Source of the DNA: Plazaster borealis
Lineage: Eukaryota > Echinodermata > Asteroidea > Forcipulatida > Labidiasteridae
DNA: 64,000 nucleotides
Reading direction: 5' to 3'
Assembly: GCA_021014325.1 (NCBI GenBank)
Contig: CM037474.1
Location: 21,880,488 to 21,944,487 of the forward strand
Shown: positions 23,010 through 35,413 of the stretch, in pieces
Numbering within the stretch: the first letter of the stretch is position 1
Layout: the number at the start of each line of letters is the position of its first letter
Notes under the pieces: model-generated
Told to the model about the DNA's origin: nothing
The model's database searches: none
Seen by the model: the letters and a program-made list of their open reading frames with translations, nothing else
Translations under genes and position numbers: made by a program

Positions 23010-23014
23010 ACTTG
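23010..23014. repeat. Left target-site duplication (acttg)
   Basis: The five bases acttg directly precede the first base of the palindromic element and recur directly after its last base at 35409-35413. Confidence 0.75.
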
Positions 23015-23079
23015 AGTAGTATAGAGAGTGGGCCCATTATGACGCAACGTACCCGTAGCCCCTGGAGCCAGTAGTATAC

Positions 23080-23660
23080 ACAATGGGGGGTTCTGGACCA
23101 CTTTCCGGAGTATGCACCCCCTTCTACACAATGGTGATTCTGGACCACTTTCCGGAGCATGTATACCTCTGGACACAATGGGGTTCTGGACCACTTTCCG
23201 GAGTATGCACACCTCTGAACACAATGGGGCCCGGAGTATGCACCCCCGGGTTCTGGACCACTTTCCGGATTATGCATACCCCAACAGCCCAATGGGGTTC
23301 TGGACCACTTTCCGGATTATGCACCCCCTTCTACACAGTGGGGCACTTCTGACGCAACACAATGGGGTCCGGAGTATGCACCCCATCTACACAATGGTGA
23401 TTCTGGACCACTTTCCGGAGTATGCATACCTCTGGACACAATGGGGCACTTCTGGACCACGTCCGGAGTATGCACCCCCCTTCTACAGAGTGGGGGTTCT
23501 GGACCACTTTCCGGAGTATGCATACCTCTGGACACAATGGTTATTCTGGACCACTTTCCGGAGCATGTATACTCTGGACACAATGGAGTTCTGGACCACT
23601 TTCCGGAGTATGCACACCTCTGAACACAATGGGGTCCGGAGTATGCACCCCATCTACACG
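23080..23660 (+). repeat. Outer tandem array of ~47 bp units, left arm
   Basis: About a dozen imperfect units built on ggaccactttccggagtatg followed by a variable ac/ccc-rich link and acaatgggg. Some units are shortened to a tccggagtatgcacccc form. Reading frames through this array are repeat artefacts. Confidence 0.85.
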
Positions 23661-23724
23661 ACCCTGCAATTCCCTGGAAGACTGGCTCTCGTTGTGGCAT
23701 GTGTCTGTACTCCAACCTGTACCC

Positions 23725-25080
23725 ATGTACCTCCAATTAGAGGCATACGAGTACATAGAATCAATCGAGAGACAGCTCCAATCGAAATACAGTATGCCTA
23801 GAACACAGCTACCACTCGAGGCCTATACCGAAATTCGGTCCGGCAAAATCTCTGTCCGAGAGGCGAAGGCAAAGTACCACATCTCCCAAGCCCGGTATAC
23901 AAAAATTCGGGGCACCACGGAAGGGATTGTCGAGGAGGCACAGCCCCCCGCACCCGAGCAAAGAAGGATAGCCGAGGAGGCACCCGAGCAAAGAAGGGCC
24001 GCCGAGGAGGCACAGCCCCACGCACCCTTGCAAAGAAGGGCCCCCGAGGGGGGGAGGCACTTACCCAGGAATTGGCGCCGCAGATTTTCTTGTCGGCAAG
24101 GGAAAGGCAGCTTCTGGAGCTTTCGGGGTATACATTCTACGAAAGACACCAAATTCCCAGGCAGCTTCTAGAAATATATAGTATGATTGCTGGCCGGGTG
24201 CAACCGTCGAGCAGCAACAAAATTGTGGACATTGTCCTTCTGTTCCTCCAAACCAACCCCAAATCTCCGCAGGAAGCTACGATTTGTTCTTGCAGAGCCG
24301 ATCTCACCGACAAAAACACACAGGGGCGATTGCGTCGATTGCATCGCCTGCAGCAGCATACAGCCAATATTCTCCCGAGACGCCTCCACCTGCAAATGTG
24401 GCTCCACCCTCCATTGTCATGCAAGCCAGAAGTGCGTTCTCTGGAAAAACAAACATATTCCAACCAGGCCCCCGCCAACCCTTCCTCCACTAGTATGCCC
24501 AGAGACCATCGAGGTCAACCTAGCAATTTTAAATATTGAAAATCTGCACGACGATGCGTGTGTGTTCTGGATCCTCCAATATGTCGAGATTGTTGGCACT
24601 GCTGCGAAGCGCTGCCCGTGCAAAGAAAATACATGCATTTGGCGTAGGCTGGCAGGGCACGACCTCTGCAGAAAGCTTTCCCTGGACCCCCCAGACGAAC
24701 CCCTCGGGAGGCCAGCTACAATACAACGTGCAGATCTGCCAAACACGAGCGCACCCAGGGGCGGACTAGAGCTGCACCAAATTCCACCCTACAAGCACTG
24801 GAAGAAAGCCGTGGAGCTCCCGGAGGGGACCTACCTCTGCGAAAACTTTGCGGTGGGTCGGAATAGGCTGCTACTCCTTCTGTCGGACCCCAACAGCACC
24901 GAGCCCTCCACCACCCCTGTGTACGGGTATAGCATCCAAGAAGCAGTACGCGATCTTGGTGGAATAGAAAGACTTCGAATGCTTGACCAGCCATTTCTAT
25001 GCAAACTTGGCAAAGCTTGCAGGTCGCCAATCTCGAAAAGAATGGACGACCGAGAAGTTGTTTCCTTGGGCGTACCGTAG
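23725..25080 (+). pseudogene. Palindrome gene A/B, left copy (HTH-like + Cys-rich cluster + shared C-terminal domain), frame broken
   Basis: The frame opens at ATG 23725 (MYLQLEAYEYIES). About residues 30-60 (EIRSGKISVREAKAKYHIS) fit a Psq/homeodomain-like helix-turn-helix. An Ala/Glu/Arg repeat (PEQRR-AEEA) follows, then a Cys cluster near 24325-24430 (CVDCIAC, CKCG, CHASQKC) that may bind zinc, and finally a C-terminal domain from LPEGTYLCENFA to the stop at 25078-25080. That last domain is shared with gene C. Two one-base discrepancies, near 24052 and 24274, put these parts in different frames. The downstream frame has no useful ATG of its own, so I read it as one gene of roughly 450 codons. 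Whether the breaks are mutations, sequencing errors or a programmed frameshift cannot be told here. Confidence 0.55.
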
Positions 25081-25325
25081 GCGATGCCGATACCGACAGG
25101 CACCGATACCGATACCGATACCACGTATCTATCTGGCACCGATACTACGTATCTGCCGCTGCCTACTGCGTATCTACCTGCGAATCTGGCGTAGCGTGGG
25201 TTGGGTGCAGCCGATACCGATAGATACGCAGTATCGACTACGTGCCATCTATCGAGGCGCGCAGTATCGGTGCCAGGCACTACGTGCCGGTTGGGCGTAG
25301 CGCGGGTTGGGTGCAGGTCGATACA
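25081..25325. repeat. Hairpin-repeat spacer between genes A/B and C, left arm
   Basis: Composed of ccgata steps and short stem-loops around tacgta/cactacgtg cores (for example ggcactacgtgcc near 25276), plus two copies of a gcgtagcg-gggttgggtgcag unit. No coding potential is apparent. Confidence 0.75.
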
Positions 25326-33341: not shown

Positions 33342-34698
33342 CTACGGTACGCCCAAGGAAACAACTTCTCGGTCGTCCATTCTTTTCGAGATTGGCGACC
33401 TGCAAGCTTTGCCAAGTTTGCATAGAAATGGCTGGTCAAGCATTCGAAGTCTTTCTATTCCACCAAGATCGCGTACTGCTTCTTGGATGCTATACCCGTA
33501 CACAGGGGTGGTGGAGGGCTCGGTGCTGTTGGGGTCCGACAGAAGGAGTAGCAGCCTATTCCGACCCACCGCAAAGTTTTCGCAGAGGTAGGTCCCTCCG
33601 GGAGCTCCACGGCTTTCTTCCAGTGCTTGTAGGGTGGAATTTGGTGCAGCTCTAGTCCGCCCCTGGGTGCGCTCGTGTTTGGCAGATCTGCACGTTGTAT
33701 TGTAGCTGGCCTCCCGAGGGGTTCGTCTGGGGGGTCCAGGGAAAGCTTTCTGCAGAGGTCGTGCCCTGCCAGCCTACGCCAAATGCATGTATTTTCTTTG
33801 CACGGGCAGCGCTTCGCAGCAGTGCCAACAATCTCGACATATTGGAGGATCCAGAACACACACGCATCGTCGTGCAGATTTTCAATATTTAAAATTGCTA
33901 GGTTGACCTCGATGGTCTCTGGGCATACTAGTGGAGGAAGGGTTGGCGGGGGCCTGGTTGGAATATGTTTGTTTTTCCAGAGAACGCACTTCTGGCTTGC
34001 ATGACAATGGAGGGTGGAGCCACATTTGCAGGTGGAGGCGTCTCGGGAGAATATTGGCTGTATGCTGCTGCAGGCGATGCAATCGACGCAATCGCCCCTG
34101 TGTGTTTTTGTCGGTGAGATCGGCTCTGCAAGAACAAATCGTAGCTTCCCTGCGGAGATTTGGGGTTGGTTTGGAGGAACAGAAGGACAATGTCCACAAT
34201 TTTGTTGCTGCTCGACGGTTGCACCCGGCCAGCAATCATACTATATATTTCTAGAAGCTGCCTGGGAATTTGGTGTCTTTCGTAGAATGTATACCCCGAA
34301 AGCTCCAGAAGCTGCCTTTCCCTTGCCGACAAGAAAATCTGCGGCGCCAATTCCTGGGGAAGTGCCTCCTCCCCCTCGGGGGCCCTTCTTTGCAAGGGTG
34401 CGTGGGGCTGTGCCTCCTCGGCGGCCCTTCTTTGCTCGGGTGCCTCCTCGGCTATCCTTCTTTGCTCGGGTGCGGGGGGCTGTGCCTCCTCGACAATCCC
34501 TTCCGTGGTGCCCCGAATTTTTGTATACCGGGCTTGGGAGATGTGGTACTTTGCCTTCGCCTCTCGGACAGAGATTTTGCCGGACCGAATTTCGGTATAG
34601 GCCTCGAGTGGTAGCTGTGTTCTAGGCATACTGTATTTCGATTGGAGCTGTCTCTCGATTGATTCTATGTACTCGTATGCCTCTAATTGGAGGTACAT
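33342..34698 (-). pseudogene. Palindrome gene A/B, right copy, frame broken
   Basis: The inverted counterpart of 23725-25080, starting at ATG 34698. Here the Glu-rich linker region that is shifted in the left arm is in frame, and the first part is open to about 34143. The frame changes at a G-run there (three G on the coding strand; two in the left arm) and again near 33592, where the left arm is in frame. The two arms thus carry different lesions, plus one junction that is out of frame in both. Reading frames extending upstream of 34698 run into the tandem array and are probably not coding. Confidence 0.55.
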
Positions 34699-34769
34699 GG
34701 GTACAGGTTGGAGTACAGACACATTCCACAACGAGAGCCAGTCTTCCAGGGAATTGCAGGGTCGTGTAG

Positions 34770-35340
34770 ATGGGGTGCATACTCCGGACCCCATTGTGTT
34801 CAGAGGTGTGCATACTCCGGAAAGTGGTCCAGAACTCCATTGTGTCCAGAGTATACATGCTCCGGAAAGTGGTCCAGAATCACCATTGTGTCCAGAGGTA
34901 TGCATACTCCGGAAAGTGGTCCAGAACCCCCACTCTGTAGAAGGGGGGTGCATACTCCGGACGTGGTCCAGAAGTGCCCCATTGTGTCCAGAGGTATGCA
35001 TACTCCGGAAAGTGGTCCAGAATCACCATTGTGTAGATGGGGTGCATACTCCGGACCCCATTGTGTTGCGTCAGAAGTGCCCCACTGTGTAGAAGGGGGT
35101 GCATAATCCGGAAAGTGGTCGAGAACCCCATTGGGCTGTTGGGGTATGCATAATCCGGAAAGTGGTCCAGAACCCGGGGGTGCATACTCCGGGCCCCATT
35201 GTGTTCAGAGGTGTGCATACTCCGGAAAGTGGTCCAGAACCCCATTGTGTCCAGAGGTATACATGCTCCGGAAAGTGGTCCAGAATCACCATTGTGTAGA
35301 AGGGGGTGCATACTCCGGAAAGTGGTCCAGAACCCCCCAT
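34770..35340 (-). repeat. Outer tandem array of ~47 bp units, right arm
   Basis: The inverted counterpart of the array at 23080-23660, with the same unit order, so the arms were homogenised or copied after the array formed. The unit core is the palindrome tccgga. Confidence 0.85.
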
Positions 35341-35408
35341 TGTGTATACTACTGGCTCCAGGGGCTACGGGTACGTTGCGTCATAATGGGCCCACTCTCT
35401 ATACTACT

Positions 35409-35413
35409 ACTTG
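35409..35413. repeat. Right target-site duplication (acttg)
   Basis: Matches 23010-23014. The five-base size is one clue to the unknown transposition chemistry. Confidence 0.75.

Follow-up and report, generated by a model that had tools for sequence, protein, structure and literature searches.

We analysed a window of 64,000 nucleotides from the sea star Plazaster borealis (assembly GCA_021014325.1, contig CM037474.1, positions 21,880,488 to 21,944,487 of the forward strand), which holds an element of 12,394 bp (23015-35408) directly bounded on either side by the target duplication ACTTG (23010-23014 on the left, 35409-35413 on the right). An earlier note, made from the letters of this DNA alone, had described a 12.4 kb palindrome between such 5-bp duplications. 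Its termini prove exact and we confirm the palindrome as a true feature, with corrections that concern unmatched patches in the arms, a central spacer and the state of the gene copies. The G+C content of the element is about 48-53% in 2-kb windows, compared to 32-43% for most of the flanks.

The two arms match each other in two blocks, both far beyond chance. The outer block (23015-25325 versus 33097-35408) is 99.70% identical over 2,313 columns and the inner block (25697-28939 versus 29405-32674) 98.75% identical over about 3,270 columns. In either arm the blocks are separated by a patch that finds no match in the other arm (25325-25696, 372 bp, and 32675-33096, 422 bp), and a single-copy spacer of 465 bp (28940-29404) separates the arms and contains a third, diverged copy of their inner end (29038-29347). 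These patches and the spacer correct the earlier view of arms of about 6 kb that fill almost the entire element. We also considered a 46-nt "filler" at the centre of the palindrome, which is ruled out: the stretch continues normal element sequence. The outer block forms the terminal inverted repeats. The left repeat (23015-25324, plus strand; 99.7% to the inverted 33097-35408) consists of the end AGTAGTATAGAGAG, tandem sub-repeats of about 46 bp (including GGTTCTGGACCACTTTCCGGAGTATGCA; 23074-23651, plus) and a broken ORF1; the right repeat (33097-35408, minus) has its own copy of the sub-repeats (34772-35349, minus). Further in, an inverted duplicate of the ORF2 region (25697-28939, plus) is joined to right-end sequence with a 2-nt overlap at a junction that we call J2 (25696-25698), and meets the spacer at the fold-back point J1 (28932-28940; overlap up to 8 nt).

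Three kinds of gene lie in the element. ORF2 is open in the right arm (30026-32779, minus), with 917 codons stop to stop and 870 amino acids from an ATG whose first base is 32638; its left-arm copy is frameshifted. ORF1 encodes a Cys-rich protein of the P0117 family and is located by tblastn in both repeats (23794-25059, plus, with stops; 33363-34629, minus, spread over three frames). The claim that each arm carries a complete gene set therefore fails, since ORF2 is open on one side only and ORF1 is broken on both. ORF1 is open elsewhere in the genome, over 429 codons in C6 and C22 and over 430 in the right repeat of C7b (C-labels denote other loci throughout, W the window copy); two relatives of it were found, and it has a C-terminal segment in common with ORF2 at about 33%. 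ORF3, a short reading frame, occurs as two paralogues in each element, ORF3a and ORF3b, which are 59% alike; the left-arm patch (25325-25696, plus) holds part of ORF3b (25442-25702, minus).

Searching the genome (560.6 Mb in 717 contigs) with the 86-nt terminus of the window element returned 12 matches, namely the paired ends of W, C543, C429, C7a and C7b, plus one unpaired end each at C6 and at C22. Because C543 and C429 share their flanks and agree at 99.7% over the aligned sequence, we count them as one locus. At C7a and C543/C429, repeats of 2.1-2.3 kb flank a unique middle that carries a single ORF2. Junction J2, used as a query, has 37 matches, through which we reached ten further elements (not counting six places that match only one half of J2). 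Every one of these has a single copy of ORF2, ORF3a and ORF3b, always arranged alike; the nine for which both ends are present measure 11.2-13.5 kb. In the normal element, accordingly, long inverted repeats enclose one ORF2 and two ORF3 genes, and in the window's subfamily ORF1 is located within these repeats. Among 16 distinct loci examined, 12 are normal, three are inverted duplications and one is truncated. Note that ten of the 12 normal loci were chosen for their normal spacing; when loci are picked by the window terminus alone, inverted duplications make up three of six. The 12 normal loci rule out the palindrome as the family's normal design, which is how it had first been read. The two other inverted duplications, C7b and C22 (at 6.29 Mb), duplicate the opposite, ORF3-bearing half around single-copy spacers, and C22 has lost its left repeat. 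The arms of the latter (C22:6280500-6297491; L031/L030) are full of a 17-bp tandem repeat, CGTAGTCGATACTGGCA, with about 120 copies per arm and one terminal repeat.

Insertion as the origin of these copies, also proposed in the earlier note, is well borne out: a perfect 5-bp duplication is present at all 13 family loci for which both ends are in hand. Four of these, including the window, were found without asking for a 5-bp match (ACTTG, ATATG, CCCCG, CATGT). At five further loci (TGAAT, GCTTT, CTACA, AACTG, GAATG) the ends were located by requiring such a match, which does not apply to the other sets, and four more loci have TCACT, ACTTT, ATGTT and CACTG. C10a is excluded from the count because its left end is outside the sequence examined. 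The comparison of copies that the note had called for has yielded a single duplication length at these loci. The element in the window is one member of a mobile-element family that has AGTAGT ends and target duplications of 5 bp. The hairpin motif GATAC-N(1-5)-GTATC occurs 18 times in the window element (25117-33305, mostly outside the main genes), 45 times in C7a, 78 times in C7b and between 2 and 23 times in a further nine elements, set against a Markov expectation from element sequences of 0.025-0.07 (0.025 for the window element); it is absent from 51,596 bp of flank within the window and from 25,524 bp of flank at other loci. These hairpins may bind a protein of the element or favour strand folding.

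How was the window copy built? In the coordinates of C7a it reads 12638-9971 inverted, followed by 2714-5959 and by 6383-1 inverted, at 96.9-97.7% identity. Its left repeat matches both ends of C7a, its left-arm patch comes from the right part of such an element, and in place of about 3.6 kb of the right middle it has the ORF2 region once more, inverted and 3.2 kb long. The comparison shows the window copy to be a derivative of a C7a-like element. Both junctions are complete in the window only (J2 at one of 37 matches, J1 with the centre at one of 28), so there is no sign that the palindrome has moved on. The two repeats of the window have six common substitutions that are absent from six other repeats, which shows that repeats are copied from one another and homogenised within an element; between an element's own two repeats, C7b has no substitutions and C7a ten. 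Divergence in the ORF2 block of the arms amounts to about six clean substitutions in 3.24 kb, and in the repeats to four in 2.3 kb.

One might suspect that the palindrome arose in assembly, from a fold-back read or from mis-joined haplotypes. Small indels do exceed substitutions between the arms (seven gap openings versus two substitutions in ORF2), and some of the ORF breaks may for this reason be assembly errors. However, the arms carry different patches, the flanks outside the duplication are different, and two differently built inverted duplications exist elsewhere, so that we regard an artefact, which the earlier note had named as a danger, as very improbable.

The inverted duplications at W, C7b and C22 are more probably copy-back products of linear DNA replication. 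A growing strand would jump to the other strand where a short homology allows it, and then copy back; either half of the element could result, and a product in which both ends survive could still be inserted. Both the homogenised repeats and the inverted duplications of half elements would be accounted for if a linear DNA with inverted ends were replicated by protein priming. Copy-back or palindromic defective genomes are known in protein-primed linear DNAs such as adenoviruses and yeast linear plasmids, which likewise duplicate one half in inverted orientation and keep both terminal repeats; unlike these, the copies described here are chromosomal and their mechanism is read from sequence only. 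Alternatively, the strand switch could have taken place in the chromosome, by gap repair or template switching after the insertion of a family member that is otherwise as we describe it. The target duplication would then stay unchanged, the overlaps at the junctions (2 nt at J2, up to 8 nt at J1) agree with microhomology repair, and that both junctions are unique to the window fits as well. On the other side, opposite halves are duplicated in three of the six loci picked by terminus, and divergence between the arms equals that between the repeats, as if all had been copied at one time. Neither observation is decisive, and we consider a chromosomal origin somewhat unlikely.

No recognised transposase is present in the ORFs scanned (Pfam, PHROGs, PDB and NCBIfam), as the earlier note had remarked. 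A likely answer lies outside the element, in a Maverick that has the ends of related copies. The end of C16, one of the elements found through J2, has 237 candidate places in the genome, of which 40 full matches were scored; among those scored, eight pairs lie 15.3-15.9 kb apart. One such pair, C19:17606817-17622191 (15.4 kb), encodes a retrovirus-type integrase core (rve, E 7.2e-11) and a viral DNA polymerase B (DNA_pol_B_2, E 1.5e-7), and it also has a match to an endonuclease VII domain (E 1.3e-5). Polintons are described with a protein-primed polymerase B and a retrovirus-like integrase in PMC11071308. Five other ORFs of this Maverick have no Pfam match; one of its ORFs is capsid-like in our own reading, without a Pfam match. 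A fragment of its polymerase has 107 matches in the genome (228 candidates, 103 scored); many are open and 98-99% identical, pointing to a large and apparently young family. Nine of the 11 pairs of Maverick ends examined for duplications contain such a match.

The terminal repeat of the C19 Maverick is 274 bp long (98.5%). C16 and C4 match all of it (98.5% and 96.7%), C14, C1 and C7c match its first 206-211 bp, and in C22b, C6b and C6c the match covers 190-195 bp and begins 107 bp inward from the end of the element. Eight of the nine relatives with this other type of terminus thus share 190-274 bp of terminal sequence with the Maverick, at 96.7-98.5%, and C16 shares 135 bp with it outside the ends as well. 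Maverick-ended pairs show 5-bp duplications in 11 of 11 cases, which brings the count for both kinds of locus to 24 of 24. C16-type relatives, in short, agree with the genome's Maverick/Polinton family almost completely in their ends and also in their 5-bp duplications, and on these grounds the Maverick integrase is the likely inserting agent. A 6.85 kb pair of Maverick ends at C6:24343632-24350484, with a 5-bp duplication and no polymerase match, is perhaps another kind of satellite.

For C16-type elements the link to Mavericks is strong; for the window's subfamily it is indirect. The latter is tied to Mavericks by ORF2 and ORF3 genes as in C16-type elements, by the length of its duplications, by its AGTAGT ends, AGT-AGT being a Maverick end motif according to PMC8097293, and by C7b, which carries a 207-bp piece of Maverick in both arms (97.1-97.6%). 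At 2026-3672 and 7419-9016, C7b (L026, L027) has about 1.6 kb of extra sequence per arm that is absent from C7a there, and whose start is this Maverick piece. Taken together, we think it probable that this is a family of gene-bearing Maverick satellites and that the window copy is a copy-back rearrangement of one, where both mobilisation in trans and copy-back are steps that we infer. The whole family would then be replicated by the Maverick polymerase and inserted by the Maverick integrase, and ORF1-ORF3 would have a separate role.

A number of observations argue against this interpretation. In the window's subfamily the terminal repeat is not shared with the Maverick in four of four cases (W, C543, C7a, C7b): W, C543 and C7a have no match to C19 at E 1e-6, the window terminus resembles the Maverick in a 32-nt sub-repeat only (E 4.5e-5), and the 12 places that match this terminus are all ORF-bearing elements or single ends, none of them a Maverick. 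Even among relatives with the other terminus, C10b matches the Maverick end only in pieces of 33 and 82 bp, and TCACT, the duplication of C1, is obtained only by counting an extra AGT at the right end of that element. The content of the Maverick is known from the one copy read, C19, and two of the 11 Maverick-ended pairs have no polymerase match. Duplications of vertebrate Mavericks are given as 6 bp, rather than the 5 bp seen here, in the same paper (PMC8097293). Integrase and polymerase are not recognised in the five window ORFs and 44 relatives of ORF2, the satellites not having been searched with Maverick proteins. Lastly, no Pfam, PHROG or PDB family was found that would indicate the chemistry of ORF2.

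A rival reading is a self-sufficient new class of transposon, in which ORF2 would be a transposase or replication initiator without a recognised fold and the Maverick ends would have been exchanged later. ORF2 is indeed the gene conserved in the family: of 8,000 candidates scored, 116 are relatives at E <= 1, with identities of up to 59-61% over its length in a sea slug, and its copies in W and C543 differ with a dN/dS of 0.46. Named relatives come from Elysia crispata (P0001, P0012), Nematostella vectensis (P0077, P0098, P0109) and Actinostola (P0101), and one (P0045) from a metagenome-assembled genome of a Thiodiazotropha symbiont, perhaps as host DNA; the remainder are mostly metagenome or assembly proteins. 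None was found in the viral contigs or the prokaryote genomes searched. The five window ORFs have a single sub-threshold match in Pfam, three of them find no family in PHROGs, and ORF2 itself has only matches with E > 1 in PDB and falls below the cut-off in NCBIfam. Its 44 relatives have scattered single Pfam matches (E 0.013-0.07), and in a deeper search (149 proteins) just one of the 120 relatives listed has a Pfam domain, being fused to other domains. Three motifs of ORF2 (SIDYTxDFSG, KIYNK and GCTRIEVSLY) align in order with nine gene II proteins of filamentous phages, which would suit a rolling-circle initiator. However, the profile comparison does not reach significance (whole length E 0.35, core P 0.11; with the columns reversed the score is 17.1, versus 18.8 for the real ones, and six of 60 column shuffles score higher), and we treat the resemblance as a lead only. 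Furthermore, Rep-type enzymes normally leave no fixed duplications, and an integrase-bearing Maverick with the same ends is present in the genome. We therefore judge self-sufficiency unlikely.

As putative Maverick satellites, these elements resemble Mavericks/Polintons themselves in being long, with inverted repeats, AGT-AGT ends, a fixed short duplication and, in eight of the nine relatives with the other terminus, sequence of the Maverick terminal repeat. They differ in lacking a recognised integrase or polymerase in the ORFs scanned, in the length of the duplication, in window ends unlike those of C19 and in having ORF1-ORF3 of their own, which were not found in C19 at E 1e-3. Non-autonomous DNA transposons can be mobilised in trans by an autonomous element and, like this family, have the ends of that element without its enzymes; unlike them, the present family is 11-13.5 kb long and carries its own conserved genes, with relatives of ORF2 in several animal groups. 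The palindromic arms were first supposed to be unusual; a near-palindromic precedent exists. According to PMC4168063, Galileo copy 112 measures 9,021 bp, has two long arms of 4,246 and 4,680 bp with tandem repeats and lacks a transposase segment, and other Galileo copies have recruited ORF pieces into their repeats. There, Galileo belongs to the P superfamily, with a P-type transposase and a 7-8 bp duplication, versus 5 bp and none recognised in the scanned ORFs of the window. Among the papers listed in our literature searches, no title or abstract describes gene-bearing Maverick satellites. The interpretation in the earlier note is, as a whole, partly supported.

Elsewhere in the window there are three ectoine synthase-like genes (PF06339, E 2.5e-24 to 1.4e-28) at 19386-20189, 39246-40070 and 45255-46046, all on the minus strand and in an animal-type genome; the latter two sit in a direct repeat that is 96% alike (39243-40435 and 45264-46460). 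A dispersed repeat of about 370 bp occurs at 1801-2172, 18401-18774, 21066-21447, 22053-22424, 43166-43537 and 56674-57031, with copies 75-93% alike. Scans for tRNAs and Rfam families gave a single tRNA-like match, in the flank.

One caution of wider use is that a palindrome in an assembly can be the derived form of an ordinary element. Beyond this, we can only tentatively suggest that gene-bearing satellites parasitise the Mavericks of marine invertebrates, borrowing ends, polymerase and integrase, bringing their own ORF1-ORF3 and yielding adenovirus-like snap-back half-genomes; the narrow size range of 11-13.5 kb may reflect packaging in Maverick capsids. Transpovirons and virophages are small elements that rely on a DNA virus larger than themselves, and virus-like Mavericks would, if this is true, have parasites of their own in animal genomes as giant viruses have theirs, except that the helper would here be an endogenous Maverick of an animal. 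It would also give a function to look for in ORF2, a conserved protein without a database name. And if the snap-back reading holds, the chromosome would keep a record of errors in protein-primed replication, and palindromes of half genomes would make it possible to learn from chromosomes how Mavericks replicate.

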